Assembly: GCF_019649055.1 (NCBI RefSeq)
Contig: NW_026570307.1
Coordinates: 558,001 to 622,000 of the forward strand
Length of the DNA: 64,000 bases
DNA from: Paramacrobiotus metropolitanus
Lineage: Eukaryota > Tardigrada > Eutardigrada > Parachela > Macrobiotidae
Reading direction: 5' to 3'
Under the pieces are notes generated by a model. The model was not told where the DNA came from. It saw nothing but the letters and a program-made list of their open reading frames with translations, and searched no databases. Below, in pieces: positions 6,695 to 64,000 of this stretch; position 1 is the stretch's first letter; each line of letters opens with the position of its first letter. The position numbers were made by a program, and so were the translations under genes.

Positions 6695-7658
6695 GGTTGC
6701 TACGATTGGGAACTGCGGAGACTTGTAGTGGAAAATAGATACTGTAAGTAATCCCAGCTGTAGTGCGAAAAATAAAAGGGCAAACTGTAGAGGAAAGACT
6801 AAAACTCGGCAGCACGAATGTTGTTTAGATGATCCAAGTTTAAATACCATCCGCGCCTCAACTTCGCGTTGGCTTTTTTCCTGCGCCTTCTCATAGTTCC
6901 GAGCTCAAACCGGATGCACTCCATTATTAACAAAGCCAATTGTGCAACGTTCTGATTTTATCCGATCTTTGTTCCTTGATACAGACACTCACTGGTCAGT
7001 ACATACATTACAGTCCTGCACAATGCAGTTTCCGGATGCGTACCTTGAATATTATATATGAGTAGTGCCTACAAAATTACAAAACACTTACAAAATTATT
7101 ACACTTATGGTTAGAAAATTAGCGTTAATTAACGAAATGATATTATCTGATCAAGAATAAGGGCTTAATCTGTTTATCCGTAATCGCAAAAATGGATGTA
7201 CCTTTGAGTAAAGTACTGTATCTTAATGGAACTGCACAGCTTCGAATATTTGATCCTTGAAGCTAATTTTGCATGAAAGTCGAAGATAGTTATGTATTAG
7301 GCATCGGAGGAAGACATATAAAGATACAATGTCCAATGTATTTTATGATTCGTATTACTTTATTCACTTATTGGTCACTGTCAGTAATTGGACGAACATG
7401 TTGCATAAAATGCAAAACTATACAAGCACCACCGTATAAACTCGGTGAAATAATTGGATGTCAACCGATTAATGTCGACATCTACATATCGCGGATTTCC
7501 ACGAAATCGAAATGAAATTATAAAGCACACCATAGTATCACATGCAGTGTATTGTAGAAGAGGTTGGTGAAACAACACAGACTAGACATAGTATCTTTGA
7601 CAGCTCCACCAAATATTCCGTCATAGAACTACTTGCAATTGGGTAAGAGCGCAGGAGT

Positions 7659-22111: not shown

Positions 22112-25100
22112 ATGGATATCAAGGTAAACTTCACTAATATTTTTCTTTTAGTATTTATCGTCATTATTTAAATAGTTTTACGCTTTAGTCATAATTTTCT
22201 CATGAAATTAATATCTCGCTGTAATGTCTAATGTCTAATTTATAATAATGCCTTCTGGTCGTCAATTTTTCGTTTCCAGCTTATACTTACCAAAGATGAG
22301 CCGTTCGGTGAACTACAACTGTCAGCAGTGAATCAAAAATCACCGGCATATTACACACTGAAAGAAGTTTCCAAACACTTTTCTTACGATTCTTGCTGGA
22401 TTATCGTATGGAATCGCATATACAACGTAACGGATTATTTGCAACAGGTAAAATTACGAGCATCAGAGCATGCTACTGAGTATTGTACACTTGAAATCAA
22501 AGATGAGCTTGGCTAAGAGTGGAAAGCGCAGAGTATTTATCAGCAGTTTTGAATTCATTATTCACAAAAACTAACCAAATTTTAGAGAATGGGTTTGTTA
22601 ATCTGTTTAATTTCATTTGTACAAGTTACAATATCAGTTTCTTTAACCTTCGATCCTGACGACTTAATCAATTTTACATTAGGGAAAATTATTGACTAAG
22701 ACATTCGGTTTAATACGTATCCAAGAAAAAAATAATACCAAATGGGTTATTGAGTTTTCGGGATAACCAGTAACCATTGCGCAGGTGCATCTGGTTATAG
22801 CGCACAAATACTGTACCTATTTTTATATTGTATAACGGGGTTTATTAAAGTGATCCGAACTGCATTAAATGAATTCAAATTAAAAAATAGCCGATTGTGA
22901 TTTGGTGCAGTGCTTGCAAAGAAAGAATACAGATGCTTACTAGAAAATTGTAGCTATTACTCTGTATATGCTGACTTCCAAAAAATCCCAAATAAAGCAA
23001 ATCTGAATCTGATTTATGCAAATCTGAACAGCTCATTTACTTTGCGCTGACATTCCACTGTTGAATTGCGGAGGTGTGTCTCGTATACACCGGCAGCTTG
23101 CGGTCAACTTGCTTTCATGACCGGCACGAGATAATATGTGAGTTCTAATAATGAATAATCGATAATAATGAGAAAATATTCTACTATCATCATGTGATTT
23201 CGGTTAAAAAAGTCATTAGCGCTAAAACTGGTCGCTCAGATTTTGCCGAATTGTTGAAAGATACAATGTAGGACTAAATGGTCGCATAGCCCCATACCCA
23301 GCATTCTGTACGCAAGCGGTGCAGTGCACTTGTACGAAACGGATATTTTGAACTCAGTCGTACAGTGCACTGCGCTGCATTTGTACTGAATGTGGAGATG
23401 TTGGGTATGCGACCATTTTGTCCTAAGCTGTATCATGCGACTATCGTGACCGTCGTTAATCGAAAAATGTTCGTTTGTTGTTCATATCCCGCACGATAGT
23501 AATCGCAGAAAATTGATCAATTTTAGGCTATTTTATACTAAATTTTACGCAATTTCGAGTGTGGAATTTTTGTTCTGAATTGGTCTCCTAAAATTGCAGG
23601 AGAAGTATCGCACAGATGCGTTTTAGGGACTTCCGGTGTGTTTTTTCGGGATGAAACGCACATCATTTGCACAATATTTATGGCACATTTGCGAAAAAAA
23701 AATCATTTTTATTGCTGTTTTATTGCACTTCCAAAACACATGATTGTGCGTTGTACCGCTGTACAACGCGCGTATTCTAAACACACATCGATGTGTGTAC
23801 CCAATAAACTCGGTATCCAGAAAAATAAATCTGTTAAATTAAACAAAAACGTTAAAAATAATAGTTCCACCGACAGTTTCACCAAAAACAAAACCAAACT
23901 TGGAAATCCAGATGTACTAAAAATCACGCTAAAAGCTTAAATGACCGAAAAAAACTGCGTTTCTCGTCAACAGTAAACTCAACTGAAATTCGGAATTAAA
24001 GTGTTTTGCTGATTAGGACAGCAACTAACAAAAATGGATATCCAGGAATTACTCTTATGGTAACAATTCTTTAGCGTCCTCCGCTTCAGCTACGGGCATG
24101 TTGCGAAACTGCACACGATATTTAGAGAAATGAGAACCAATTGTTTGTCCAAAGCTCTTAGGAACATCGCCAGGACACTGCGTGACCTTCAGTTTCGTAA
24201 CAAAGTCTGCAAAGTAACAGGCACCTTAATAATAGAAAAACTACGTAAGACACGGATTTCCAAATTAGAAAGAGATTTTCGAAAAAGAAATTTGGCTGCA
24301 AAACTTACGCTCAATGGCTTTCAGCAAATTCGGATGCATCTTTGCGATACCGGCTCGCTCTGACGGCTTCTCTTCAGATAAAAAGCGTCGGACTCCTTCT
24401 TCTCCTCCCAGAAGGAAAGTAGCCAAGTTGCAGGCCAGATTCGCCTTTGATTTTGAACGATCCACCAACACCTGGAGATCCGAGCAGTCCACAAAAACGC
24501 CAGTATAAGGGGCGAGTTCACGCTTTTTTCCAGTTTTGACCAAATATGGATATTCTAAAGAAATTTCATTTCAGGATTTTCAAATATTTACTTAGAAAAC
24601 TTGCAAATCATACCATTTCCCGCAAGCGACTTCTTTGGAAGTAATTCTATCAAAATAACGGTAGTTTTAATGGAAGAAATGACAGAACGTAATCTCTGTG
24701 CATCTCACAAAGTCTTTGCTAAACTTTTACCGTTAGAGCTACCGGAAGTTGACGAAAACGAAGGCGTTCGTCGTTTGCGGTCCTTCTTATGCTTTCGACG
24801 ACGTTTCTTTTCGCGTCCTGTGGAGGGCATTTTAGGAATAAAAACACGAATGTGGATTTCCAAAAATTAAATACCTTTAGATGAATCACGATGCTTTCGT
24901 TTATGACGTTTAGAACCTACGAAAACATTATCTGCAAAATTGAACAAATTTAACTAAAACTGCCAGTTTTACTTTCGTCAGAGTCCGACTCCGATGAACT
25001 GCTTGTATCGCGCTTTCTTTTCTCTGCAATGGAGTAATCTTTTCATTCTTCTACACTTGTATGCGTTATTCTCGTACTCTTATGACGACGTTCCTTTGGC

Positions 25101-28100
25101 TGTTCTTTGGATGGTTCAGGAAATCCAGGCAAAATGTCTGACGGATTTTTTCCTGCACCCAGAAAAAAGGTGAAGCTGACAAAAAAATCTGAAATGGTAC
25201 AACTAACCCGCTGTATTTTGTTCTTTATCAGCTCGCATTTCTGGAAATCCGGGCGTTTTAACTTAAAAAAAAATAACATTAAAATAGTTTTGTTGTCAGG
25301 CTATATGGCAATAAGTTCTTCGGCTCATACCACCAGCTGAAGGAACAGTTTGACTGGGAGCGGCTAACGATGGCACCTACAACGAAAGATACTGCACATG
25401 TTCAATTAACTTTGTAATGAAATTACCTGAGGTAGTGCGCGGAACAGAGAACGTGGCTCAGGAGGAGGAGCCAACAAACCACCGTTGGCATTCGCCACAT
25501 TGCGCAGTAGTGCCTGTGTTTCTTTCTTGTTCTTTTCAGCGGAACTGGTCCTGTCTTCCTAAGGGAGTTTAAGGAAAGTTGAAATAAACTTTTCTAAAGA
25601 TATTGTTGCCACGCAATAAATATTACCCAAGATTTTTCAAATTTATCTTTCAAAGAAATCGCATGAGCGACCGTATTGCAAATAGCCAGGATTTCCGACA
25701 GGTACGTGCGATCATCATACGTTGCCAGAAGACGGTCGCCCAATGTGAACCCGTCGTCCGCAATTCTTCCCACAGAGGCGGCGTCCGGAAAAATAGGATC
25801 AGTGTCGAAGTCCAGAGAGGATTTCAGTGCCACGATGTTGTCGCCTTTGAAGCGAATCACTAGTGTTTCTGCAATCAACTGTTATCTGAAAGCTTAAGCA
25901 TGCTATTTGACGATTTACATGTAGAAATTAAGAAGTTGGATTTCCAGGTTGCTATCTTCAGGTTGGCGCGTACTTACGTTTCCTCTCAACCAGCAACTGC
26001 ACAGCTTTCTCGAAGTTATCGGTCTGCTTTGTCGGAACACCCTTGTGGAGCTAAGTTCAGAATTTATCAAACGTTATTAGACAGTCCGATATTAGCGAGG
26101 AAATGCCACGAAGTTACTCGTATGTAAAAAAAGCGAAACAAAACCTGGACATCCACTGAATTTGTGCCCGAGTCGCCGTTTTCGTTTTCCACTGGACCTG
26201 CTTAACAGTGTTAAAATAAATCGATGCCAACAAAATTGGGGCATACGATTTTATAATTACGTACTGAAATACAGCACAAATACATGACAACACGCTAATC
26301 AGGCTACATCGAGAAAGGATGTTACGTTTTTGTTACTTAGTTCAAAAAGATGTTACTTACTTCGAAAAAATGGAGAGCATATAGAAAATTAACTTACGAG
26401 TGATGGATTTCCGAGCTTCAATAGATTTCGCCATATCTACAAGGCTTTTCATAGGAGTGAAGTCGGGTTTCGTAGATACCTTTGGCTGTTTCCGGACCAA
26501 ACCTGGAATAATTCACATAGCTGCACCAATATGTCAAATTCTCAACAAATTTCCCGGGATTTCCCAGTTTAAAAACATTGCCAGTGATAAGTAACAGAGA
26601 GAAGTTGAACTTCCAGGTTATCTATTCTGTTCCAAAAAAACAGTCTTACCATTTGCGGGCTTAGCTTTCGTTACGGAAACTGCAAAGCCTTTGAGCTTGG
26701 ATGGCTCTTTAACAGGACGAGCTGGGCGCTTACCGGAGGTTTTCTCTAAAATTTAAAAGAATTAACGTTCCACCATGCTTCACCGTTCTAAGTTTACAAC
26801 AAACCAGTTGGTGGTTTATTCGTTTTCCTGCTTTTGTTCTTTTCTTGGATTTCCAGATTCTCGTTCTCGTCTACAAAGAAAAAACGTGGTGATATGCTAG
26901 CACTCGTGATACCAAACGTTTAATTACCAGAATCCGACATGTTTAATGACCAAAATATGGGATGGGATACGCATTCAGGAAGAAACAGGGGGGAAATAAG
27001 CGTGTTACTGTGGCTTGAACTTGGAACAACTAATTCACGTTTGCAACCGTTCCGTTGTCAGCTCGATTAAATGAACGCGAATGAACGCTTGCAGCAAAAC
27101 CTCTGAACCGTTTGAATTGATGCGACCAATCAGAACAGAGAGGCGATCTTCGCGATGACGTTTTCATAATTCAAATTATATTTGGTAATTTGTGAATTCT
27201 TTGGTATTCTGTAAGTTGTATTATTTGTGAAACTTCATGTTGGAATTCCCAGAGCAATGAGTAAACGACCCAGAGTTTATTATAATTCCCATCTTCATGA
27301 TCCCTCCAAGGAGATCACTGCACGGCAGAAGCGCCAGATCGAAAAGAGCCGGGAAAGAAAGCTTGTGGCAGGCGGAGAGCATTGCCTGGACAACTTATTA
27401 CCTACTGTTGAACAACCTTGGATTTCCGACGAAAGCGACGATTCTGCCGATTCAAACGATGTATCTGATAGCGAAACAAATAGCAGCTATTCAGAAACAG
27501 AGCCCGAAGACTTGGAAAATGGAGATTGTGATAGCGATCCTGCCAAACTGGGACACGAGCGTTTGGACGCCCCGCTCTTTGAAGGCTCGCCCATGTCACT
27601 CGGCGAATACATCCAGATTCAGCTGACGTTTGCGCGACGTCATAATTTATCCCGGCAAGCCACGATTGGATTATTCCAGAAAGACGCGTTAGTTCTGCCA
27701 ATTGATAACAGGGATTTCCCAGATTCGTGGTTTAAACTTACAAAATTGCTCAATGGATATCTGTCCAATTATTGCGTGCATTATATTTGTCCGGAGCATC
27801 AGTGTTATCTCGGATTTCCAGCAATGGATGAAAATGAATTACAATGTCCAACCGACCACAAAATGATTTTCGTCAAAGATGAGTGCGTAAAGAAACTGTT
27901 TTATTTCACGACGATATCTGTTGCCGAGACGTTGCGAGTCTTTTTAAAAGCAAATTACCGTAAAGTCAAATTTGATTTTCAACCGAATTCTGAAGGGGAA
28001 ATCCTAGACTTGAGTGACGGTTTGATGTATCGATGTCACAAAGAGAACTATGGAGCCGGCTGCCGGTCAATTTCCCTGTCAATTCATTTGGACAACGTCG

Positions 28101-31100
28101 CTCCTCATAAAGGAAAATCCGCCAACAAAAAGACGTGCTATGTCGGGCAGTTTACCATTAACGAAATGACAAGTGCGGATCGGCAAAGGCATGTGTTTCC
28201 TTTTCTTATATATTGTGGTAAGTTATTTTGCAGTTACAGATGTTCGTCTGTAATTTTTAAAAACTTTTTTTATCAAATTAAGTTGTTATTAAGGAAAGTT
28301 TAACTAATTGTGTAATTATGTTTGGTTATCTTATTAAAGTTCGCTGGTCATCTTTAGCTTTGATTTACAATTAACCATTCTTTGTTATTTTAAATAAATA
28401 TTACATGCAGCATTTGAATAAAAATAATATGGCAATTGCAGGACGTAGTATGCCGCCGCGGGAGACGTTGCTCGCACCTTTCATTGCGGAGATGAATCAA
28501 TTGATGATACATGGTTTAGATTGCGAGATACAGGGAAATCCAGCATTAATAAAAGTCTTTCCTATATTATTTCCATGCGATACAGTAGAGCGCAATCGCC
28601 TTATGGAGATAAAGGGACACACCGGATATTACAGCTGTACAACATGCTGTCAAAAGGGGAGCCATGCCGGAACGCATATATTTGAATATACGAACGATTT
28701 ACCTTTACGGCGGCATGAAGAGCACATGAAGCTGGCGAGAAAGGCGGCCAACTACAATAAGAACGAGAAAAAGAAAATGGAGGATCAGCTGTTGGGCGTC
28801 AGAGGAATGTCTGTACTGTGTGCCCTCTCCCTTCCGGTTGCCAATTTTCCTAGGAGTTTTCCGTCTGATTTTTTACATTTGATTTGTGAAGGAATTTTCA
28901 AGACCATGCTGGAATACTGGATCACAAACAATTTCTTGGATATCCAGGCTTCCGATTGGTCGTTATCTTTGTGCAGGCCCCACTTATGTGTGAAACGTTT
29001 GGTACGTTCTATAGCAGAATACCATACGCAGTTTAATGGTGGCGAGCTGATGTTCTTGTTGCTGTTTTTCGGACCTGTGGCATTCAACGGAAATTTGACG
29101 CTTAATTTGTACGTTCATTATCTGAAACTAGTGCGCCTCTGCCACTTTCTACTGAGTGACAATCTGCGGTCACAGCTGCTTCCTGCGCTAGATTTGGAGG
29201 TACATAATTTTATCAGGGATTTCCAAAGTATATACGGAAAAGAAAAAATGGGATCCAACGTACATCAGCTGCTGCACATTGTTGGCCAGATTGAAGACTG
29301 GGGTCCAGTTAATCACTATTGGACATTCCAGTTCGAGGGAAACATTGGATCCATCACGAAACGTATCCATGGCAGTCAACACCTGAGTAAAGAAATTGCA
29401 AAAACAGCCACTTTGGCCTTGTGTGAAACGTGCCTGGAGAGCGATTTTGGAGGCGGCAGCACGGCAGAACGTGACCTTTTTCGCAGCGGATTAAAAAATT
29501 CTCAGCAAAAAAAGGGAGCCATAATTGTTTATTCATCGGCAACATTCGCAGTTCTGAATGGTGTGATTATAAAGGAATTATCATTTGTGAAACGATTCCC
29601 GGATTTCCATGCTATGACCGTGGCGATACTTAAAGGTGCCGTGGGAGACGATTTTACCATTTTGGGATTTTCGCAGTCTTGTGTGGTCGACTCCGGTTTC
29701 ACCTGTAAGGCCGAAAATACGGAAAGCGCAGGCCGGAACTCGTCTTTTGTTTTCACATCCGCTAAACAGATTGTTTCAGTGGTGTGGAGTGTTGCTGTGG
29801 AAGATAACACGGAAAAGGTTAAAATTTTTTTAATCGGAAAATCTTATGAGTATAACTATTCTGTGTTATTTTTAAATGACCCGGATTTCCCAGTATTTTT
29901 TGATTTAAGTGATCGCTTTGAATACGTTGCTGTACCATCAACAGATGCCGTTTGTGCTATCATGAAGTGTAGTACTGGATTACGAGTTACTGTTGCCAAG
30001 ATTCCCAGTTGTTTGCATTCAGACTTGTAAATTTGAAATAAAATAAAATCAAAACTGAAGTTTTTTTTCCCGGTTTCCAAAGGCCAATTCCACAAGTAAA
30101 AGATCAAATCATAGCAGATACACGCTTCAGCAACATCTTACATTCCAAAAATCAACTTCAATTCAGTCAACAACTGAATCAATTCAGTTATTTCAGTACG
30201 CAACGAAGTAGCATGAAATCACAACAAAAGTAAAGTACAAGCTGTAGTCAGTGCACACAGTGCAAGAAGTATAAAAGCATTCAAGATCATTTAGTAAATA
30301 CATATCATCATGGAAATCCGCGAATCCGAGGTTTGCATCATGGCCGAATAAAAGCAGCGTAAAGGAAACCAAACTCCAAACTAGTCCAGGATTTCCTAGT
30401 AGTAATGGTTCTCGTAATAGTAGGTCATTCTCTCCTGGTAGATCTAAAATCAGACAAAATACTAATAAGTTTGCATTCCAGATTTAACTTAAAATTACAA
30501 TACTGAATCAAACGTAATAACTTACGCTTCCACGACTCTGACCGCTTTCACCAGAGCAAACAGTTCCGCTTTCACTAGCCGTGTCACTAGTATCCCGTTG
30601 TCCAGTCGAAACAGTTTTCCCGCTGGAATCAGAAGCGTTGCTGGTGCTGGAGGTTTCTTCATCATCGGAAAACTCGCTACCGTCGGACGAGTCGCTGACG
30701 TCCGAAGCCTCACTCTCGCTGTCCGGCAGATCGCGCACAACCGGTTCAGCAGGCATGGCGATGCGCCAAGAGAAGTACGCCGAGTGGACAGGTTTGCCGC
30801 TGCTTGCAGTGAGGATGTACTCTGTTTTCAGCGGCACAACCCTTCCGTCTTTCTTAAAAACATTCAACATCATCCCGGAAATCCAGGGACCACGCGGCTT
30901 ACGCTGCAGCATTCCACTGCTAACCCGACAATCATACGCTGCATGGATGTTTGGGCAGACGACGCGGTGGTTCCAGTAATTCGGATTATCAAAATCCTCG
31001 TCGTGCCCTCCCGTCAGCCAAGGGACCATGCACTGATCACACAGCCGATATTCTTCCTAAATTCAGGAAATCCAATCCAAAATATTTATAATGTTTTATT

Positions 31101-33760
31101 CGCATACCATGGTGCGGGAATCGTGCAGGCGCAGTTTAGTCATGCGTCGCGTGTCCCGCAGCAGATCGTACACTTTGCGAAACACCGCCCAAGCCGGCCC
31201 TTGAAACACCTGACTTCCACCACGCGCTAACTCTTCACAAAGTCTTGGATATCCAAGTCTACAAAGAAAACTGGTCACAAAAGTGACGACAGACTGTGTT
31301 TGCTCCGGAGATGTTACCGGTCGGCAATCTTCATCGCGGTTGGCCGCTGGCCACGCAGTATCAGTGGAACCAGTAAGGAGCTCAGGTGGTGCTCAACATC
31401 GTAGTAGACAGGCTTGGATGTGCCAACGAAACCAGCCACTACTTTCTTATCCACAATATGATTCACCCGCATCAGATCCATACCAGCTGGGCAGACCATT
31501 TCTGCATACAGATCGACGTCGAACCCCCCACGCAGCAGGAAAAATCCAAAGCGCATCACCTGCCCGTGCTTAAGATTCCCGTAAGAAAACGCTTTGAACA
31601 GGCATTCCGGGATGTCCGGAAGTCGCGTTAAGTCCGAGTGAATGTAACTGCAATATCACAAAACACATGCTTGGAAATCCACGTGAATAACATTAACAAC
31701 AATAGTAATTATAACGGTTGTGTATCACGATATATAATAATTAACGCTTCCGTATTTTACCCCTCTGCGCTTGTAATTATATAATTCATTTTAACTGCAG
31801 CGGGCCAGGATATTAATTTCATAATACTCACTCGAACACAACCTGCAGCAACCGCAAATGGTAGATCGTATCGTAGTAAAATTCAGCTGTGCCTCCATTG
31901 AGCATTCCAGCAAATTTCGGCAGGACTTTCTTCAGCAGGTACATCTTCAGTTGAACGGGTTCGGGCAGCACCTGGCGGATACGATTTTCAACCTCCCTCA
32001 AAGCATGAGCCGACGAAAACACATCACTGTCTTGGAAATCCAGGGAAGAAAAAAGGCTTCGTTCTGTGTTCACTGAAACATTTAAGTACACTGTCAGTTG
32101 ACGGCTAATATTCCATGACATTAGATCAGACAGTAAATTAAAAAAGACAGCAACAAAGTGAAAAAGGTCATTTTCCTTACCATGTGGCACTACATACAAA
32201 TGTGCCCATCGAGCTTTCAACATCGTTCCAGGAAATCCAAGCTTTTCCATATCTTCTGCTGATTCGATCATCGCCCAGTTATGGGGCAGATCCAGCACTA
32301 AAAAATGGCATTCAACACACAAAAAGAAACCAAAACCAATATACGTACCAGGTTTTTTCACGGAGTTTGCAGACATGAACACGCGAGTGCTCGTGTGGAA
32401 GCCATAATCGCGTTGTTCTTCAGGTAGGTCGGTCATTGTGAGATGCTCACTACATGCACTCACGCAGAAACAAGAAACCACAAACAAACACACGTTTCTA
32501 GAGTTAAAAACAATCAAGTAAGAATGAAAATCAGAAAATCTGACCAAATCAAACGATATTCTAGGGTCTTCAAACGAGTCTAAAATGTAGGAAAGTTCCC
32601 GCACGTGAAGAACTAAAAAATTGGCTTTTGCAGAAGTCAAAATTCCACGTGCGGTATGAATGCGCGTATGGTGCTGTCGCCACAGGGCGGGTGCAGTGCT
32701 ATCATGCGGGCATAGTATTAATTACACTAACAGTGCACCAACCCACAAGTAAGTAAAGTTCTGTAAGAACTATGAAAACAAGCTAATAAACCATATTACA
32801 GCAGCAAGAAAACTTTTTTTGTGCTGTACAGCGTCCCTGTTAGAGTTTATAAGTATGTACAGCAGCCGCTTATGTGTTGGCAAAAGAATTGTAATTATCA
32901 GTGGACTAATGGGAAGAAATGCAGCACTCTTGTGCAAATTGCGATTCGAATTGCTTTTGAACGGGAAAACGGTAAAGCGAAATTGTTCGTGTACAAAAAA
33001 GCGAGTTTTGATGTACATAACTAGTCCAGCTAACAAAAATCAATGGCGAGTTGTAGAAAAGATGTTACAAACTCTAAAAAAGATGTTTCATCCTGGAATT
33101 ATATAACTTTCATCCTGGAATTATATAACTTGTGCACCAAATTATGCACTTATTGGCAGCATCCAGGCGGAATGGAAATAATTCTGGAATTCGCCGGTAG
33201 CGATGCCACATCTGCTTTTATCGATAAAGGTCACTCCCGAGTGGCTGTTGAAATCCTGGAAGACTATTACATTGGTGAACTGACACCGGTAAGTGGTGTA
33301 CAGTAATATACTAACATAATTGCGTTATATCTTAATCTATATATATATATATTTATTATCGTGGGTTTAATAATTATGTGCTCAAGTTTATTATCTATAC
33401 TAGTACTTGTGTTGTATGTGCGTGTCTAGTTTAACTTACACCGTTCTGGATTAATCAGCAAACAGTTTTGCACACAATAAGCCGTGGTTGTTTAAATACA
33501 TTGTTTTATTAATGCTTACGAGTTAACTGTACAGATATACTATGTATGTGCGTGTGAGTAATGCATATCTTGTTACAACAAAGAATGATTTAAGTGACCG
33601 CTTGATTTCACCCAATCAACAAAGGCCATAGATAGTATTACTAAACCTTCAGGTTTAGTAATATTATGCATAAGCATATAAACTTCTAAAATAACTGCTG
33701 ATTATCGGTATTTGCAATTTACAGGAAGATCGCCTGTATCCAGATTATTCTTCACCGTAA
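22112..33760 (+). CDS. Cytochrome b5, small tail-less form, four exons
   Basis: Haem-binding electron carrier. Exons 22112-22123, 22280-22447, 33160-33288 and 33725-33760 join in phase 0 to give 114 residues with ATG (MDIK) and TAA. Residues about 24-60 (YYTLKEVSKHFSYDSCWIIV, then RIYNVTDYLQQ) match the N-terminal half of the fold. Exon 3 opens with HPGG, the classic haem ligand His, and carries GHS with the second ligand, then ILEDYYIGEL. The chain ends soon after the domain with no membrane tail, so this form should be soluble. Intron 2 falls just before HPGG and is about 10.7 kb, against 156 and 436 bp for the others, because a transposon sits inside it. Both splice sites are intact, so the gene is probably still functional. 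Confidence 0.85.
23260..23434. mobile_element. MITE-like imperfect palindrome
   Basis: About 80 bp at the left (GATACAATGTAGGACTAAAT and onward) is repeated inverted at the right (ending GTCCTAAGCTGTATC), with a short AT-rich centre. Both arms share AATGGTCGCATA and GTGCAGTGCACT-like segments. It carries no ORF and lies just left of the large transposon, in the same intron. This fits a small non-autonomous inverted-repeat element. I see no certain target duplication. Confidence 0.55.
23488..23501 (+). repeat. Candidate left terminal inverted repeat
   Basis: CCCGCACGATAGTA, matching the reverse complement of 32697-32710 at 12 of 14 positions. It lies outside all the motif copies and genes of the element. 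Confidence 0.4.
24055..26940 (-). CDS. Transposon-encoded nuclear protein with BEN-like C-terminus
   Basis: About a dozen exons on the minus strand. The start ATG is at 26940 (MSD, then DENENLEIQEKNK) and TAA is at 24055-24057. Splice phases agree all the way, with no internal stop. The N-terminal part is charged and disordered (KRPARPVKEPSKLKGFAV). The middle exon (about 25625-25875) looks folded (TLVIRFKGDNIVALKSSLDF). Three small exons are very basic (EKKRRRKHKKDRKRR; KRHKRKHR) and should act as nuclear localisation/DNA-contact segments. The C-terminal part (about 24055-24560) has VFVDCSDLQVLVDRSKSK and NLACNLATFLLGGEEGVRRF, then HPNLLKAIER. That spacing is reminiscent of BEN domains, which bind short palindromic DNA. 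It is divergent from the transposase gene, sharing a 316-bp gap. The BEN assignment is by eye and moderate. Role inferred: binding the element's own motif. Confidence 0.6.
26941..27256. promoter_or_regulatory. Divergent promoter region of the transposon
   Basis: The 316 bp between the two outward-facing element genes must hold both promoters. It is AT-rich with no perfect TATA box. One GGAATTCC copy lies at its right end (27242). Confidence 0.45.
27257..30030 (+). CDS. EnSpm/CACTA-type transposase
   Basis: Two exons (27257-28217 and 28442-30030) splice to about 849 residues. The first true ATG is 27257 (MSKRPRVYYN). The N-terminal region is acidic and Ser-rich. A Cys/His cluster follows (CPEHQCYL), then APFIAEMNQLMIHGLD and a CTTCC zinc-knuckle-like site. 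The catalytic region shows SDFLHLICEGIFKTMLEYW, the counterpart of the DYMH motif that holds a catalytic Asp in this family. It then shows NVHQLLHIVGQIEDWGPV followed by FQFEG, matching the DUF4218/Transposase_21 pattern that ends in the PFE Glu. Both acidic residues are present, so the enzyme may be active. The exon 2 acceptor at 28442 avoids an in-frame stop left by the nearer AG. Eight GGAWWTCC copies lie in the coding exons. Confidence 0.8.
30396..32436 (-). CDS. Third transposon gene, unrecognised, acidic Ser-rich tail
   Basis: Spliced minus-strand gene of about 500 residues. Exons are 32349-32436, 32181-32297, 31832-32072, 31318-31647, about 31108-31264, about 30527-31059 and about 30396-30441. 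Phases agree and no stop interrupts it. The start is ATG at 32436 (MTDLPEEQRDYGF) and the last exon ends in a Tyr-rich tail (MTYYYENHYY). A Cys/His-containing stretch (YRLCDQCMVPW, then HRVVCPNIHAAYDC) may bind zinc. The C-terminal region is a long Ser/Asp/Glu tract (DSESEASDVSDSSDGSEFSD). It converges on the transposase gene. I do not recognise the family. By position it may be an accessory transposition or targeting protein like TnpA, but nothing in the sequence proves that. Confidence 0.65.
32697..32710 (-). repeat. Candidate right terminal inverted repeat
   Basis: TGCTATCATGCGGG on the plus strand, the partner of the left candidate. The next bases are CATAG, against CATAT before the left end. 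Confidence 0.4.
33086..33129. repeat. Perfect 22-bp tandem duplication
   Basis: TTTCATCCTGGAATTATATAAC twice in a row, 30 bp upstream of the cytochrome b5 exon 3 acceptor. Confidence 0.9.
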
Positions 33761-51096: not shown

Positions 51097-51853
51097 CTAA
51101 CAGAAGAAAGCCCAGCACTTATGGAAAATGACACCCCGACAAATCGGACACAACAGCAGCTTGCTTGAACATTTTGCACAGCAAACTAAATGACCACATG
51201 GTCTGAACATGATTTCCCGAATCATTTTCATAGCAGACTTTACAGCGTAATTTCTCTTTGGGGTCTTCAGAAGTTGTAGGTGCTTGAGCTTTTCGTGTTA
51301 GTCCACAACATGTTGTTTCGGCTTCTTGGCGTTTTTTACGAACATCGTTGATGAATGTTGAGCCCTTTGTTTGTACAAGATACGGACATTTCGGGTAAGT
51401 CCAAGCGTGCTCTTCCCACGGAACATCATCTTTGTCCCAAGCATAAAGTGCACCACCGCAGTGAAAGCAGCGTACACAGTCATCTCGGCCTTCATAATAA
51501 AAACCGGCTGCAGCCATATCTCTGGGTTGCTGGTGTTTGTTAGCAGGCCATTCAGCGTAAGTAGCAAAGCGTGTCTTGTAGTCTTTCATTGCCGGTGAGT
51601 GCGGAATGTGTTTTCTTGATCCGGATTCTTCCATAGCCCTAACACAGTCTGGACGTGCTAAACGGTGTCGGTAGTATGGTTTATACCGTGAGTTCACCCA
51701 GTCACCCATAATATAGCCACAGTACGCGCAGTGGATTTCGTCATGCTGCCCTTGATAAAAGAACCCTTGGCTTGCCAGTTCCTCAGGGGCAAGGGACTGA
51801 TCCGGCCAGTTTTCAAAACTCCCGAAGCGATTGCTCATCTGTGTCATATCCAT
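51097..51853 (-). CDS. Inhibitor of apoptosis: two BIR domains plus RING in a second frame
   Basis: BIR proteins bind caspases or IAP antagonists; the RING is an E3 ubiquitin ligase. No ATG lies upstream in frame before 51853. BIR1 (about residues 9-75) has CAYCG, then His and Cys in zinc spacing. BIR2 (about 95-165) has CFHCG with C-x2-C-x16-H-x6-C intact. A RING starts with CKVCYE, but the frame then changes at an A run (plus-strand T run 51225-51228). The rest of the RING, including CGHL, is in the neighbouring frame down to a stop at 51097, while the original frame runs on to 51119. No intron is seen, unlike the host genes. A TATA box lies 40 bp upstream. Host or viral origin is open. The TATA layout and the position beside the inverted repeat favour the insertion. 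Confidence 0.8.
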
Positions 51854-51892
51854 TTTGGCTACCAACTGAACAGTCGCACTGAAATGCTAGGG

Positions 51893-53292: not shown

Positions 53293-54794
53293 ATGGCTCC
53301 CTTCAAGTATCTTGCGGATTATCAGGAGTGGTGCCGCCAGCAATGTGGTAAGTCTTATCCCTTTTTTTTAAAAATCTTTATAATTTTTTATTATTAAAAG
53401 TATTTAATATTATTGTTCTAAGAAAAAAAATATTGTTAGGTATAATCAAGGGGTTGGAAACCCAGTGGGACGGTTTTTCGGAGCAAGAGAAACGGGAGTG
53501 TGCCCAGTATAATATCGGTACGTTCTCGTTATTATTTGTTAAAAGGTTTGAACTTAAACAATGAAAATTTATTTTATTAGATCTGTGTGCAAGTGTCAAG
53601 AAGTTTGTCGGCAGCTGTACATGGAGTAAGCCGGGAAAGGTGGTAGACCTTTTGCTACATGCGGTCAACCGGTTGGAGGTATATTGATTTTTTATTTTAT
53701 TTCACAAAATTAGTGGTACATCCGTATAATATGTTTAGTGGTCGGTTACCTTCTTGAGTTGTGACATTGTTCCCGATCCGCGTCGTACCAACTTACAACT
53801 GGATACGGTCCCCATTATAATGGCAGGCAGTGTGGAGCGTGACCGAAAGAAGAAAGAGAAGCTCAAGGCCAAGTCTTCGTCATCAGTGAAGCCATGTACT
53901 TCCAAAGCCAAGCCGAAGAAGAAGAAGCAAAACCAAGCCAAGCGGGTAATCCAGTCACCAACACCCTCTCCACCGTCAAGCCGTTCTCCAACCCCGGACT
54001 TTGGCGGTTACGATTTTACCCGGCAGCGGGAGCCCACCCCCCAACCATCGCCACCTGTCTTCTCTGAGCCAACACAACATGCTACATCTTTACCGGCGGC
54101 TGTCATCACTGAGCCACCTCAACCTACTCCACCATTGCCGGCGGCTGTCATCACTGAGCCTACTCAACCATTGGCAGTATCTGTTACTGCTGACCAGCCG
54201 ACTACTATGCATATGGAGTTTCCTGTTAGCCAGCACGCCATTGTTTCCTCGGGTACTATTACATTCCAGGCAACGTTCGCTGACGGTACGACCATTGAAG
54301 ACACCCTGCCTGTCCCTCCGACTATTCCTACTCCACCGTCTCCACACTTCAAGGCGCCATTGCCAGTGAAAAAGTGCGTCCTCGTTCCGCAGAAGTTTAC
54401 GTTCCCGAACACTCAAACCGTGATTACCGTGAAAGACGATCCACTTGGCAGTGCCGAAAATCCTATCATCATTGAAGACAAAGAAGAGCCGCCCGTCATT
54501 ACTTTGGATGACTCTGACAGTTCGGATGAAGGTATGAAAACGCTTTGCTTTGAGTCGGATAATGGGGGTGGAGGGGTCGTTTTGGACGGAGGCCAGGATA
54601 CCGACATGGAGGACAATGACGAAGACGGCGGTAATGAAATGGACGACGGATTCTTGGGAGACATCGATGAAGATGCATTCGAGCCGCCATTTACGTCTAC
54701 TCAGTATTCATTGGACAACAATGCGATGGAGGACACAGTTGGTATGACCGAAGTGGAGGGCTGGTTGAACGCATTTGGTTATTACTTAGACTGA
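53293..54794 (+). CDS. Virus-like spliced gene: repeat domain plus Pro-rich and acidic tail
   Basis: Four exons. Exon 1 (from ATG 53293) encodes MAPFKYLADYQEWCRQQC and ends in phase 1. Exons 2 (about 53439-53518) and 3 (about 53581-53680) encode a helical unit (GLETQWDGF; VVDLLLHAVNRLE) ending in phase 0. The last exon (about 53740-54794) opens with WSVTFLSCDIVP, then has a basic stretch (RDRKKKEKLKAK; KPKKKKQNQAK). A Pro/Thr-rich region with repeated AAVITEP units follows, and then an acidic tail, ending in TGA. The total is about 430 residues. The helical unit corresponds to the two units of the 58.3-kb gene, with the same flanking intron phases. The basic stretch suggests nuclear entry and the acidic tail suggests transcription activation or chromatin binding. 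The family is not recognised. The gene sits between the two inverted-repeat arms. Confidence 0.7.
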
Positions 54795-55107
54795 TGAATT
54801 GTTTTCTCTTCTTCATGTTGTTACCTTAGCTAAACCATTTTGCTAATGATGGCTTTTATGTAACTTGCGGTTGATGGGTGCAATGTTGATAAGAAAAATG
54901 TTAACAATAACTTTTGATGTGAACTCTGAACGAAATCTGTTGTTGGTCTATTAAACTGTTTTTAAAAGAATAGATATACGGGTTTAATGATTTGTCGCAG
55001 AAACACAAAAAAGCACTTTATAATGATGTGCAACATAGGTCCATTATAAAGCGCCCTCGAGGCGCGCGCGCGCAAAGCCAAAGCCGCGGCCGAGCGCAGC
55101 CAGGCCA
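54795..55107. other. 3' region of the 53.3-kb gene
   Basis: AT-rich sequence turning into a GC-rich CGCGCG tract (about 55055-55110) that leads into the right inverted-repeat arm. No gene seen. Confidence 0.4.
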
Positions 55108-55644
55108 CGCGCGTGGTCCTCGCTTCGCTCGGACCACTGTGTTACGTCACTAGCTGTCTTATTAACCCGGATACTAATGAAACCTCTGTTGATAAAAGGG
55201 TTTTGTTTTATTGACCCATAGACCGCTAGTGTATAATTTGATATACAATAAACTCCCGACTACAAACACGTTGAACCCGGATTAAAAGCATTTAATATTC
55301 AAAGAACGATGCCACTCATCTCATAAAACAATACGGTAGTTCCGTATTCATGGGAAGCTAACCGGAGCTAATCGTGACATTCTTTTACTTAATGAATGGG
55401 CACAAAATGTAATAGTATCTTAACCTATACAGCCGGACCTATCCTTGTTACAATTAAACCAATACAGATAGACTAAAAACTTGATTTAATGACTAAGCTA
55501 GACAGAGCTTCTTCGTGCTTATAAACAAGCTAGACAGCATAGTTTAATACATGGCACCACACACTGTGTTTAACAACATACCACAACATTAGTTCCAGGC
55601 TAAACCTCTACCACAAAGACACAAGACAGTGACCAATAGTTCAA
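55108..55644 (-). repeat. Long inverted repeat, right arm
   Basis: Reverse-complement partner of the left arm, lacking the 74-bp block. No matching target duplication is visible outside the two arms, so they may not be the ends of a simple 3.6-kb transposon. Confidence 0.95.
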
Positions 55645-55713
55645 GTCCGAGATTCCTAACAAACAAAACAATTTTTAAAAACGGGAAATATTAGAAATTA
55701 GGCAAATCGCTAA

Positions 55714-57187
55714 TTAATTATAGCGGCGACGGCGAGGGTCTGATTCATTCGGCGAATCGGTGGAACGCTTTCGCGTAGTCGGCTGGCTGTAAATTTCCTC
55801 CGGATAATGGTCCCTGGGTGAGTTAGCGATGCGGTTAATTTGGTCAAGGATAAAAGGTTGGGAAAGAAGGCTATCGATTCTTTCAACGGCGGTCTGGTCC
55901 TCTGGTGAATAGTCTTGTACTGGCGTTGATGCGCGCGGAGTCGTTGAATGGAACGGTGTTGGCGGGCGGCGGCGGCGTTGCGGTGCATTCACAAAGCGTG
56001 ATCGGCATGGATTGCGAGTCGGTGTAGTAAAAGCATCAGACGTGGAAGGCATTGTGGGTGACGGTGGAGTTGAAGAGCGGTGGCGTCCACCTCGTGGCGC
56101 ATCCAAAAGACGTGTGCTGTATGGACTGCTGGGAGAAGATGGTGACGTCAAGCGAATCAAATTGAAGGGCTGTGTGCGAATCGGTGAAGGCATTCGATCC
56201 CGGGCAACGCGGGCAACATTCCAACGAGAGGTATGTGCTGGCTGCGTAAGGTAATGGCTCAAAGTTGACATGTCAGGAGAAGCAGGACTGTACTCCACCA
56301 TCTGGGTCGGTTCCGGTGTGCGAGAACGTTGTGGCAGGGAAAATGCTAGCTCTTGCTCGTGATCGTCAGGCAACGGAGAGTAGACGCTGCCGTAAGCAGC
56401 AGCAGTATAGACGCCGCCGTCGTTGATTGGAGTGTAGATGTGGTGGGTGTTGTCTGGAGGATAGTCGTTAGCTGGAGTGTAGAAGCCAGTAGGTGGTTGT
56501 GGTGGTGGTGGACTTGGCGGTGCGTAAAGCTGCGAGGCGGGTAAGGGGTTCTCACCAATGAACGGCACGGTGCCGGTCACGCCAAACTGGTAGACTGAAT
56601 TGTAGGCGGCGCAAGGGCCATACGGACCAACCAAAGAAATAAGACGGGCGTCATGGAAAAACTGAATGTCTCCCTATAAAAGGCAGACAACTATACTATA
56701 TAAAGAATCCGGCTAATATATTTTTGCTAACAAAATAATATCACTCCTTTGAAGGTGGGGCAAAAAAGCAAAACCAAATCTATCGTGGAACTTACCAAAA
56801 TCATATTAGCCAGATGGATAGCATGCACCCAGGCATCAGGAAGATTATCCATGGCGCTTACGTTTGGACGCCGGGCCAGCATATCACGACGTATACGGGT
56901 AGCAATTTCTGTTTAATTTAATTTTGTTGTAATAATAGACAGAAAATCAATTGGAAAATTATCTTACCGAATGCTCTATTGGAGATGGCAGCCAGCTCTG
57001 CAGTCGTTGGCGTGCGAGTGAACACATGAAAAAACTGGTCAATCTCCAGACAAGCATTAGCAAACGGACAACCAGGATCCACCAAGTTGTATGGGCGATA
57101 CACGCCATCGGAGGAAGTGGATGATGCGTAGGACAATGAGGATGAAGAAGATCCGGTAGATGCTACTGAATCTGCTCGGGAAGACAT
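55714..57187 (-). CDS. Virus-like spliced gene with long Pro/Ser/Thr-rich tail
   Basis: Three exons on the minus strand: ATG 57187 to about 56966, about 56796-56909, and 56676 to the TAA at 55714. Phases agree. Exon 1 is a Ser-rich leader (MSSRADSVAS), then a compact region (CPFANACLEIDQFFHVF; TTAELAAISNRAFG). Exon 2 gives IATRIRRDMLARRP and DNLPDAWVHAIHLANMIL. Exon 3 gives FFHDARLISLVGPYG and then some 290 residues of low complexity, rich in PP, SPSSP and RRRR, ending KRSTDSPNESDPRRRRYN. The total is about 420 residues. The folded N-terminal part and the Arg/Pro tail could suit a structural or nucleic-acid-binding protein. I do not recognise it. Its 3' end lies 70 bp from the right inverted-repeat arm. 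Confidence 0.65.
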
Positions 57188-57318
57188 TATGTAAAGGTCA
57201 CTCGTTAACTGATGCTTACTAAGTCTACAGCGCTGTTATGAGCTAACAGTGAAAGATCCAAGAAGCGTCCAAAAACTGCTGCTCGAGCAACTGATGGATT
57301 AACTGTGGCTGCAGTTGG

Positions 57319-57324
57319 TTTATA
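57319..57324 (-). promoter_or_regulatory. TATA box of the 57.2-kb gene
   Basis: TATAAA on the minus strand (within GATATAAACC), 132 bp before the ATG. Confidence 0.6.
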
Positions 57325-57599
57325 TCAGCGAAAATTTGGTTTCCAGATTTTTCACCGTATTTGTTCTTTTGTTTCCTTACAGTCGGTCTGGTTAAGGCTC
57401 TTTCTCCTTCGTAAGACTAAACCTTACTGTTTCCATACATACGTGTAAGGAAAAAGTTCAAACCAACAAGGCACGAAGCGTACGGTTGAGTTTCTTAGTA
57501 CAAATGTTAAAAGAAAAGACAAGTTTCTGTGGAATTTTGGTATGTGTTGAAGTAAAGGAAAGTTGAGAGGAAACCTATGACAAGAGGTTAGAGCGCAAG

Positions 57600-57935
57600 C
57601 AATAAACAGTAATCCGTCTCGCGACCCGGATAAGAGCCATTATGTTCTTGTTTTTCTGGGTCAAGCGACGGTTTGATTTACCCTGCATCCGTATCTTAGA
57701 TCCTGAATAAGTCGCGTCAGCGACCTGGTTTCTATTGTTTGAGATTTTTGGTATAATGGCTGTCGTTCTCCTGTTCATTTGCCCTGTTGCCCAGCTAATA
57801 TCCCGGATTCGTCGCGACACTGACCAAGATTGCATTGTTTTGCTACCGACATAATCCTGTTTATCTGGGTTACACGTTCTTTTGATTTGGTCTGGTAGCT
57901 TGATATCTGCGAGCCGGATTCCGTCGCGACTTCCA
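57600..57935. repeat. Spaced TCGCGAC-type repeats, about 100 bp apart
   Basis: TCGCGAC or GTCGCG-like cores occur near 57618, 57710, 57811 and 57922. Two of them are preceded by CCGGATT(C)CGTCGCGAC. The sequence between them is less similar. They lie in the non-coding gap between two outward-facing virus-like genes. Confidence 0.5.
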
Positions 57936-58193
57936 TTGTTCAAAAAACGGTTTTTCCGGATTCTTACAATGGTTCTCCCTCAGGCCTTTTTACCTAATAG
58001 GTCAAAAGGAATTTTCCTTGGTAGCTTCACGTATCATACAGCCCAACCCACATCGTTAGAGAACCAGTGTCCACCAGACCAAAAACTCTCTGCTTCGGAC
58101 CACATCAGTCTGGTCAAGGGTAGTGGGAGTTTACAAATCACCTGCAGCCAATGGTTGCGCACCAGAAAAAATGTTGAGTTCCAAGCCAGAGGA

Positions 58194-58199
58194 TATAAG
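58194..58199 (+). promoter_or_regulatory. TATA-like box of the 58.3-kb gene
   Basis: TATAAG, 81 bp upstream of the ATG, with a CCAAT sequence about 45 bp further upstream (near 58148). Confidence 0.45.
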
Positions 58200-58279
58200 T
58201 CGATTTCTCTAACACAAAATCAAATCATTCGGACAGTTTTCTTTTACGCACCACTGCAACTGGATTTTCAGCATCTCCC

Positions 58280-59572
58280 ATGGCTATTCCTGATTTTCCG
58301 GACGAGTTTCCACTGCTTGAAGAGTACACCGGTAAGTTAAAACAGTATGTATTGCTAACTTATGTATTTACAAAAGCTGTCAAATTTATTTTTCTAACAT
58401 TAGTAATGGTGACCTTTCATAGTTAGATTGAGGCTCTTTATAACACGATTATTGCTCCATTACCTAAAGAAAACCTCGGCTTCTTATAGAGATCGCAAAT
58501 GAATTGTTTTCGGATTGGTTGGCTCTCAACCACTGCCGCAGAATCCGGCGTTATTCTGGCTATTTCAACCTAGCCTATGCGTTGTGGATTGACCTTGCTT
58601 ACTACATCCGCCATTATGATGCTCTCGTCTTGTTTCTCCATGTCGCTGAATTTCTGGTAAGCAGCCACTGTAAATCTTATTCTTCACCTAGATTTGCATT
58701 TCTTAATTCTCCTTTGACTTTGGTTTGCGATTTATCGCTAATTTCAAAATTTTCCATGTAGAAACAACTTCACGATTTCTACTATCGGCTCATTGTTCCC
58801 ACTCCGGATTTGCCTGACGAATTTCCACAACTTGCACAGTACATTGGTGAGCCACTGCATTTTCGTCAAGATTTTCGTGTTTGTCTGTTCCGGTACGTAT
58901 AACATATTTAACCTTTTAGAGCAGGCCAACGACTTGATTTCGGACTGGGCTTCACGTACTGAGTTTGACCAGATCCACACCTACTACACGTACTATCAGC
59001 GGGCCAAGAATATGTGGTTTGATCTTCAGCGTTACACCCGCAATGCCGGCGTCCTTCTCCTGTTTCTCCGTCTAACTGATTTTATGGTAAGAACCCGCGC
59101 CGTTGATGTACTTTTTTTGTGCATAATTTAAGTTATATTCAATGCTTGATGTTTATAGAAGCGGCTGCACGACTTCTACTACGAACGCATTGCTGGCGCC
59201 CCGGACAACTCGCTTGACTCGGGTTTCTTTGAGGGCGATCCGTCGGATGAAGCTGAAAGCGACGTGGGTGACGAAAACGAAGAAGAAGAAGAAGGTGAAC
59301 ACGTTCTCGCGGATGACACGTTGGAGAGTGAGCCGGCGACTGAAGCTGAAGAAGGAGAAATCGACGAGGTTCCGGAGACCGAAGCCGAAGAGGAATTGGA
59401 CGACACTCTCCTGGTAGGAGACATTGACTTGGACGAGTACCTGAACGGCACTGAGCCTGTGGACACTGTCGAAGGCGGCAACAAACGAAAGCATTCGGAC
59501 GACGACGACAACAACGACACCGAGGAACCGCCTGCCAAGAAGCAAGAGACTGAGGTGAACACGCAAAACTAA
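58280..59572 (+). CDS. Virus-like spliced gene with duplicated helical domain and acidic tail
   Basis: Five exons. Exon 1 (from ATG 58280) encodes MAIPDFPDEFPLLEEYT. Exon 2 encodes ANELFSDWLALNHCRR and YALWIDLAYYIRHYDALVLF. Exon 3 encodes KQLHDFYYRLIVPTPDLPDE. Exon 4 encodes ANDLISDWAS and MWFDLQRYTRNAGVLLLF. Exon 5 (59159-59572) begins KRLHDFYYERI and becomes a Glu/Asp-rich tail with a KRKHS/PAKK nuclear signal. Two copies of one domain are thus in tandem. Each domain exon enters in phase 1 and leaves in phase 0, and each is followed by K-x-LHDFYY. The total is about 300 residues. The acidic tail and nuclear signal suggest a nuclear regulator or histone-binding protein. The family is not recognised. 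Confidence 0.7.
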
Positions 59573-59748
59573 AATGTCGTAGTGTTTTTCTTTTATGGTT
59601 TTGTTTTTACATACAATACATACCATGGGCTAATGGCAGTACAGTTTTCATACCTCTCATTTGATACCGCATTCCGTGGGATAATGGTTACAGTAATAGC
59701 GGAATTACAGTGTTGTGGTAATGGTGTAGACTGTTTTCGATGGAGATG

Positions 59749-59770
59749 GTTGTTGTTGTTGTTGTTGTTG
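59749..59770 (+). repeat. (GTT)n microsatellite
   Basis: About seven GTT units downstream of the 58.3-kb gene. Confidence 0.85.
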
Positions 59771-59987
59771 AAAATAATACAACGCGGCGCTTTTCCGTTA
59801 GATTTTTACGTTAAAACATGTCGAAAAAAAGGCCGAGCGGTTACTTACCGACGCTGCTAGCGCCGGTAAGTATCCACCCGCGCCCACTGGAACGCCCAAA
59901 GGTGTGGCTTAAACACTGTTAACCAATTGCATCGCATTACAGAAAACATCAGACCAATAAGCACACGCTGCAATAATTCAGCTCGTG

Positions 59988-59995
59988 TATAAAAG
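59988..59995 (+). promoter_or_regulatory. TATA box of the DNA polymerase gene
   Basis: TATAAAAG, 58 bp upstream of the ATG and followed by GC-rich sequence. A CCAAT sequence (AGACCAATAAG) lies about 35 bp further upstream. Confidence 0.75.
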
Positions 59996-60045
59996 CCGCG
60001 CGGCACGAGATTTTTCTTCATTTAAATCCTTCACGACTGGCGAAA

Positions 60046-63000: not shown

Positions 63001-63668
63001 CCCAAACGGTATTCTGATCTGTGTCGTTCAAAAGCTATTGAAATACATGATGTCTATGGCGTAAGCCCAACGTGTCTGATGGTAACACACTCGAAAGTGG
63101 ATGACTACAATGAAGGTAGCAACGGTACGAATGTTGTCATTGCCGCTTTCACCACCAGCCATGCGCGACTTATACTGTTATCCCTCATGGAAAAGTTGGG
63201 CGAGCGCCTCCTGTACTACGACACGGATTCCGTGATATTCATTCACCGACCTGGCGACTGGCTTCCTGATACCGGCAGTATTCTGGGCTTGGGATACAGC
63301 TAGAAGCTGGCGAGAATCACATCGTCAAATTTGTTTCCTGTGGTCCAAAAGTGTACAGCTACGAAACCGACACGGGGCGCATTGAGTTGAAAGTGAAAGG
63401 GATGATGCAGAACGGATTTACGGAAGATATTCTGGATTGGGACTCGGTCACGAAGGAGCTGACGCGGACTGAAAGCCTTGATTTAACCAGCTGAAGCGGT
63501 TACTGGATGGTGTGGATGGGCACGTGCAGGTTGTATATCCAGAATACATCAAACGAAATGGAAAACCCAAGAAATTAATACTGTTCAGTTAGCTAAGAAA
63601 TTGAAGCTTGTTTACGACAAGCGCATCATGTTGATGATTTTACAACGCTGCCTTTTGGCACGCGATAA
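60046..63668 (+). pseudogene. Protein-primed family B DNA polymerase, Polinton/adintovirus type, frame-broken
   Basis: The polymerase copies the element's own genome. The first frame (60046-60789) is an acidic N-terminal region followed by the conserved pre-zinc-finger segment of these polymerases. It ends in an ATGA overlap with the next frame, which starts a Cys/His zinc-finger block (60786-61030). Then come exonuclease motifs FFDYET (about 61190) and HNFRGYDGHF (about 61370). Polymerase motif A reads DVVSLYP (about 62405), the motif B region lies near 62935-62960, and motif C reads YYDTDS (about 63218). The C-terminal LPFG ending gives a stop at 63668. At least six frame changes separate these blocks, several at short homopolymer runs. 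The full length of about 1,200 residues is normal for the family. It is either a decayed copy or uncorrected sequence; as it stands it cannot be translated. No capsid, integrase or ATPase gene lies in the window. Confidence 0.85.
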
Positions 63669-64000
63669 AAAAGAGGGTGGGGAAAAATCAATAAAAGAAA
63701 GGGGAAACCTAATCTGTTTGCGTCGCTTCGTCGCTCACCATCACATCAAGCACCTCTTCGTAATCTCATTCTTCCAACTGCGTACGATTGGGACTTGATA
63801 AAATAGGAAACAATTTCTAAAGTATTGAAGACTACCAGCAGCATGGTGACCAGTACTGCAAAGAATACTGATGCTGCTTTTTTAGCTAACGGCTTAACCA
63901 TTTCTTATAAGGTCGCGTATAAATGTTGCGTCACGGACTACAGTCCTTAGTCGGAAGAACTTGTTGATGAATTTACATACAAATTTATCATTCACCCCTT
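63669..64000. other. Downstream of the polymerase
   Basis: No gene or repeat recognised up to the window edge. Confidence 0.4.

Follow-up and report, generated by a model that had tools for sequence, protein, structure and literature searches.

Near-palindromic GGAWWTCC words tile a Plavaka-like transposon in the tardigrade Paramacrobiotus metropolitanus

Introduction

Word-and-reader systems, in which a transposon carries a short word that is read by one of its own proteins, are already known in kind from VANDAL and CACTA elements. Passages of two reports describe how VANC lifts silencing over a whole Arabidopsis VANDAL element, and how its words are mainly non-coding, lie in dense tandem arrays of one orientation and turn over fast (PMC5735166, PMC10398659). 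For CACTA/EnSpm elements, part of PMC2613891 describes element-specific repeats that cluster near the ends and are read by a second protein of the element, one that is poorly conserved. Palindromes are also read by host proteins: according to a passage of PMC6911014, Insensitive and the ELBA factors of Drosophila bind palindromes (CCAATTGG) as homodimers. The BEN fold consists of a beta-hairpin and five helices, as given in sections on BEN proteins (PMC6911014) and on BANP/BEND6 (PMC10206803).

Here we analyse a 64,000-nt stretch of the Paramacrobiotus metropolitanus genome, referred to as the window, which contains a transposon (family A) densely marked by the word GGAWWTCC. As in the VANC/VANDAL system the word is short, dense and element-specific, related families use different words, and a divergent protein encoded by the element is a candidate for the reader. 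In contrast to VANDALs, the words of family A are near-palindromic and evenly tiled, occur in exons too and in both orientations, are not tandem, and are largely fixed in place between copies that are 60% identical. Further, the transposase and the host kingdom differ, anti-silencing is proposed here by analogy, and DUF1985 and DUF287, the VANC domains named in the cited part of PMC5735166, are absent in a Pfam scan of P0001 and P0002.

With TNPA of CACTA/EnSpm the locus probably shares the broad transposon group, Plavaka being grouped with EnSpm in a passage of PMC12730594. It also shares element-specific repeated words and, as a candidate, the second protein. Unlike the end-clustered CACTA words, those found here tile the whole element. 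The near-palindromic word, together with the order of a BEN fold predicted for the C-terminus of a family A protein, recalls the BEN boundary proteins; those, however, are host proteins, while the protein of the element is Pfam-negative for BEN. In the open-access collection that was searched we found no account of palindromes that tile an entire element at even spacing.

Results

Sites and genes of the element

In the window there are 31 exact matches to GGAWWTCC against 2.97 expected, and none of 100 dinucleotide shuffles reaches this number (the maximum is 7). All but two of the copies fall within 23902-32238 (Table 1). The original prediction had put 27 copies of three forms into 8.3 kb; the enrichment holds, while the count is corrected to 28 plus one GGAATTCC at 27242. 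It had also named a single copy elsewhere, at 7493, which is right for the three forms, the remaining match at 19068 being GGAATTCC. Inside the 9.2 kb element GGAAATCC/GGATTTCC is found 25 times, or 57 times the genome mean, and the 169.8 Mb genome has 8052 copies of GGAAATCC, counted on both strands, or about one per 21 kb. The best palindrome-like 8-mer has a -log10P of 28.5 in the element; elsewhere in the window, six stretches of 9 kb (two of them overlapping) give at most 5.4.

The sites have no fixed period, as had been predicted, yet they are spaced more evenly than random: the mean distance is 297 bp with a CV of 0.47, against 0.95 under the null, and 0 of 5000 random placements are as even. 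The predicted presence of sites in exons, introns and gene gaps is borne out by the gene models and by the reading frames used. Nine sites lie in the span of the left gene, four of them entirely exonic in the gene model built here, and a fifth, at 25243, seems by eye to be exonic as well, in an additional exon that the public model has. Another nine, spread over three frames, lie in the transposase coding sequence. The flanks differ between sites, and the centre is mismatched (AA or TT) in 25 of 29. Complementarity between the flanks is weak and limited to position 1 (28/64 vs 20.1).

Table 1. Features of the family A element in the window. The sites are exact matches; their state in the second copy, on C168, is taken from the pairwise alignment.
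Feature	Position	Strand	Remark
Transposon, family A	23536..32717		limits set where the alignment of the two copies breaks off, right limit moved out to a TAGTA; tentative
Left gene, LOC129596270	24055..26940	-	15 exons, 492 aa, candidate reader
Exon of left gene	24309..24554	-	most of possibly BEN-like domain; remainder in 24055-24206
Transposase, Plavaka-like	27257..30030	+	two exons, ~27257-28217 and 28442-30030, splice sites by eye
Right gene	30508..32436	-	several exons, ORF-based
Site GGAAATCC	23902..23909		within 40 columns
Site GGATATCC	24036..24043		same column, there GGATTTCC
Site GGATTTCC	24254..24261		within 40 columns
Site GGATTTCC	24854..24861		within 40 columns
Site GGAAATCC	25119..25126		none nearby
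Site GGAAATCC	25243..25250		same column
Site GGATTTCC	25689..25696		same column
Site GGATTTCC	25938..25945		same column
Site GGATTTCC	26405..26412		same column
Site GGATTTCC	26557..26564		within 40 columns
Site GGATTTCC	26847..26854		same column
Site GGAATTCC	27242..27249		none nearby
Site GGATTTCC	27420..27427		same column
Site GGATTTCC	27712..27719		same column
Site GGATTTCC	27812..27819		same column
Site GGAAATCC	27997..28004		none nearby
Site GGAAATCC	28534..28541		same column
Site GGATATCC	28938..28945		same column
Site GGATTTCC	29217..29224		same column
Site GGATTTCC	29601..29608		same column
Site GGATTTCC	29883..29890		same column
Site GGAAATCC	30312..30319		within 40 columns
Site GGATTTCC	30389..30396		same column, there GGATATCC
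Site GGAAATCC	30877..30884		same column
Site GGAAATCC	31066..31073		same column
Site GGATATCC	31247..31254		same column
Site GGAAATCC	31673..31680		same column
Site GGAAATCC	32034..32041		same column
Site GGAAATCC	32231..32238		same column

The transposase matches the Pfam family Plavaka (PF18759) with an E-value of 0.0088 and 15.7 bits, under the cut-off of 26.3, and CTTC is visible by eye in its translation. The left-gene product has its match in LOC129596270, an uncharacterised protein of the same species. For the right protein, matches of the part used as query are confined to the two copies in the window and on C168, and the idea that the right gene is a widespread partner was therefore rejected.

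The termini of the window element read TACTA...TAGTA, with TTA outside both ends. Plavaka/EnSpm-CACTA (CMCT) transposons have CA..TG-like termini and a target site duplication of 2-5 bp. As the ends seen in the window do not recur in the C168 copy, the exact termini are tentative, and no convincing long terminal inverted repeats were found. The right terminal stretch (32576-32711) matches five more places at 74-81%, three on C49, one on C164 and one on C56, which are perhaps relatives or non-autonomous copies.

A side observation concerns the two main forms of the word. In both copies GGATTTCC is the commoner form up to about 30 kb and GGAAATCC beyond it, with hand counts of 14:5 vs 1:6 and 16:6 vs 1:8 (p 0.02 and 0.004). 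This bias may follow strand composition.

Conservation of the word in a second copy

A DNA search with the element and a search with the right protein found at least one close copy besides that in the window, at about 71.1-80.6 kb on C168. It carries 35 GGAWWTCC sites in 9 kb, from 71441 to 80442, with a sharp edge: the 28 kb region of C168 holds a single further site, at 87336, outside the copy. There GGAAATCC, counted on both strands, stands at 69 times the genome mean. The arrangement is thus not that of subterminal repeats, as had been noted originally, since the sites tile the whole element in both copies.

The two copies are 60% identical over 9002 aligned columns, and only 4.7% of all 8-column windows in the alignment are identical. 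Nevertheless, 21 of the 29 window sites coincide in column with a site of C168, and in 19 of these 21 pairs the central bases are identical; another five have a C168 site at most 40 columns away and three have none. In the transposase we compared third codon bases between the two copies, using only codons that encode an identical residue and agree in their first two bases. They agree in 15 of 17 cases inside sites and in 275 of 543 outside (p=0.002).

Words that are one base off are not enriched, with 1.42 and 1.37 per kb in the elements against 1.59 and 1.41 outside. As they are no commoner inside the elements, decayed sites are not seen. Spacing in the C168 copy is also even, with a mean of 265 bp and a CV of 0.49, against 0.95-0.96 under the null (0 of 5000 as even). 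The shared columns, the third bases, the lack of one-base-off words and the even spacing together show a word that is preserved for its DNA sequence and is tiled over the element. The GGAWWTCC sites are under selection at the DNA level, as intact words evenly spread.

Words of other transposase lineages

Searching the genome with the transposase gave 31 matches, 29 of them distant (22-35% identity). We analysed 28 distant loci (L016-L043); some of these overlap or are near-copies, and because the loci are not independent, clades are the units of comparison. GGAWWTCC is not common to the distant relatives, with zero to two copies in each of the 28 loci. The enrichment that had been predicted for relatives is therefore seen in the close C168 copy but not in the distant ones.

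Further lineages of the same transposase superfamily carry dispersed palindromes of their own. Among six further clades, four are tiled by a word of their own: GGTCGACC, GGAGCTCC, TGNNNGTCGACN'N'N'CA and GCGNNNNCGC. Words from an open 8-mer count were tested against 29 MITE-flank control loci, whose best value is 5.0; controls in which the MITE is kept reach 7.5, because the MITE itself has GTGCAC. In six loci (L021, L025, L026, L029, L037 and L040) GGTCGACC reaches 11.7-18.6, while GGAGCTCC reaches 15.2 in L027 and 11.2 in L035. Values for TGTCGACA in L017, L019, L020 and L024 (5.1-7.0) exceed the controls by little, owing to the variable arms.

A gapped search found GCGAnnTCGC in the two loci of family E, L016 and L030, with 7 and 11 copies and values of 8.3 and 14.3 against a best control of 6.2. 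The centre of this word is free, GCGnnnnCGC occurring 40 times in the two loci combined. In the gapped-palindrome test family D (5.0-6.3) and the family A loci L015 (6.6) and L014 (none) do not stand out, one control being at 6.2.

In two clades (L018/L022/L028/L023/L032 and L031/L033/L034/L036/L042) no word was detectable. One candidate, AGAAATCT in L034, passes the 8-mer control at 8.1, but the strongest words of this locus are overlapping parts of one repeat, and it was set aside as looking like a satellite. Beside the transposases of this palindrome-less clade, L033 and L034 show a short tandem-looking repeat around AGAAATCTAAG.

In a tree of 25 transposases, out of 30 loci, the words are clade-specific, with one each for families A, B, C, D and E. 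Families A and C, which both have GGAnnTCC-like words, group at a weak support of 0.604, and the words of B and D have a common GTCGAC core. Even spacing is found here as well: the CV is 0.27 in family D, 0.28-0.30 in L021, L026 and L027, 0.42 in L017 and 0.39 in L019. Family E is weakly even (CV 0.51-0.53; p 0.10 in L016 and 0.03 in L030).

The word of family D rests on the count of palindromes of at least 12 bp and on a test of arm symmetry. There are 8-11 such palindromes per locus in 3.9-4.0 kb, against 26 in 81 kb of control. A 10 kb stretch of this family has 17 GTCGAC, 16 of them as an array at C19:1003610-1010340 (L075, L020). In 16 of 16 sites of this array, positions 1-4 of the two flanks are complementary to each other, with letters that vary from site to site; shuffling gives an expectation of 5.7, 7.4, 6.3 and 12.5 for the four positions. 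Family B has 22 sites, of which 20 are symmetric as far as position 1, 18 as far as position 2 and 9 as far as position 3.

At one family D site, compared by eye, L017 reads TGCAGGTCGACCTGCA, and the arms in L019, L020 and L024 are TGCGG...CCGCA, so that two changes have left the symmetry intact; most other arms are identical across copies. Genome-wide, TGNNNGTCGACNNNCA occurs 363 times and its reversed control 236 times, and 23 of the 50 distinct places listed are symmetric, against a chance of 1 in 64. These 23 places are clustered, with sites 0.3-1.2 kb apart, and many are copies of one element; L076, which is without a long ORF, is among the clusters. Self-complementary but varying arms around GTCGAC were thus seen in L075/L020, L017, L019, L024 and L076. 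The symmetry of the arms may have a structural or a mutational cause.

The left gene product as candidate reader

In all four families examined (A, B, D and E) the transposase has a divergently transcribed gene as its head-to-head neighbour, and the N-terminal domains encoded by this gene are homologous among B, D and E. The family A protein is predicted to consist of a folded N-terminal domain, a basic serine-rich linker and a C-terminus that is possibly a BEN-like domain, its predicted order being a beta-hairpin followed by five helices. The AlphaFold models are poor (pLDDT 39 and 53), and the structural matches listed are mostly to gyrase, those to BEN being weak. The model of the whole left protein, poor as well, matches neither BEN nor anything else of use. 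BEN is absent from Pfam scans of the left protein at E-values up to 10, the left-gene locus is not among the matches of a genome search with PF10523, and PDB sequence searches with the protein found nothing.

The left protein of family A has a marginal similarity to those of B, D and E, whose significance depends on the ends chosen. For the C-terminal domains of A and B one choice of ends gives a score of 26.0 against a shuffled mean of 25.8, and their homology was counted as unproven. Longer ends give p-values of 0.036 and 0.017, with exons picked by eye and 16 pairs tested. In a profile search with family A the best match outside A is a family B exon (E 0.88). No public protein was found for the left gene of family B at E-values up to 0.01. 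That for family D (P0003) is partial, marked LOW QUALITY and has two further Pfam domains, and it was set aside.

What the sites may be for

With moderate confidence, we read the 29 GGAWWTCC sites as selected recognition sites of a reader that is encoded by the element and coats the whole Plavaka-like (EnSpm/CACTA-type) transposon. The left-gene product would, most likely, bind as a homodimer to the near-palindromes, which recur about every 300 bp, and the bound reader would mark or coat the entire element. The likeliest benefit would be that the chromatin of the element is kept open, by anti-silencing or insulation, as VANC does for plant VANDALs. Word and reader would co-diverge, so that each lineage marks itself only. 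A homodimeric reader could explain why the word is near-palindromic, self-encoded readers why different words exist in one nucleus, and coating why the tiling runs through exons. That a binding site is spread over the whole element had been predicted originally, and at the level of sequence this is supported by the sites kept in the sister copy, by the conservation as DNA and by the private palindromes of other lineages.

We propose, more tentatively, a wider version, in which animal DNA transposons would carry an address code over the entire element: in this one genome at least five lineages would each be tiled from end to end, through the exons as well, by a palindrome of their own, and a co-diverging self-encoded reader would shield the chromatin. 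Here the GTCGAC address would be partly structural, since its arms vary between sites but stay self-complementary.

It is rather unlikely that a TNPA-like cofactor along the element instead serves transposition, through compaction, end pairing or self-marking against self-insertion. Such a role has a precedent in the second EnSpm/CACTA protein, whose element-specific repeats are required for transposition according to part of PMC2613891, and tiling would shield the whole interior from self-insertion. However, the sites are not concentrated at the ends, the first lying 366 bp inside the left end and the last 479 bp inside the right, while the middle and the coding exons are tiled; this even tiling is easier to reconcile with a chromatin role than with end synapsis, though it may also serve self-marking against self-insertion.

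We consider it improbable that the element exploits a host DNA-binding protein, such as an insulator or a germline activator, as the reader. Host insulator proteins of BEN type with palindromic sites exist in flies (a passage of PMC6911014), and sites along the whole element could recruit such a protein, but several host readers would be needed for the clade-specific words of related elements in the same genome, where GGAAATCC/GGATTTCC has a density of about 1 per 21 kb.

The varying yet self-complementary arms of families D and B suggest another origin, in which the words are DNA or RNA structures (hairpins or cruciforms), or owe their palindromy to a mutational process such as template switching, with no dimeric reader. 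This is very improbable: in family E the centre is free, and a 3 bp arm, as in family A, cannot form a hairpin. The hairpin reading of family A is rejected by its mismatched centres and by flanks that are uncorrelated beyond the weak signal at position 1. Finally, an artefact of satellite spread, of one peptide motif or of base composition, which the nine sites in the transposase coding sequence might suggest, can practically be dismissed: three frames (which reject a single peptide motif), introns and gaps are used, the flanks differ, no shuffle reaches the count, and nearby stretches of equal length hold nothing alike.

If element-encoded readers do coat these transposons, they would be an animal counterpart of the anti-silencing by VANC in plants. 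As the code runs through protein-coding exons, the coding sequence would then carry a second code. Several diverged word-reader pairs in one genome would form a natural experiment on the co-evolution of specificity and target, and tiled palindromes next to a head-to-head gene would be a simple diagnostic for such systems elsewhere.

Neighbourhood of the element

Directly to the left of the element, at 23261-23434, the window has a MITE-like repeat with long inverted arms, for which 40 copies were scored out of 356 candidates, at 96-100% identity. Further to the right, ORFs in 53700-64000 resemble, by eye, those of a Polinton/Maverick, a type B DNA polymerase among them; the two of these ORFs that were tested gave no Pfam match. 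The protein encoded at 51119-51886 contains two stretches of BIR (inhibitor of apoptosis) type.
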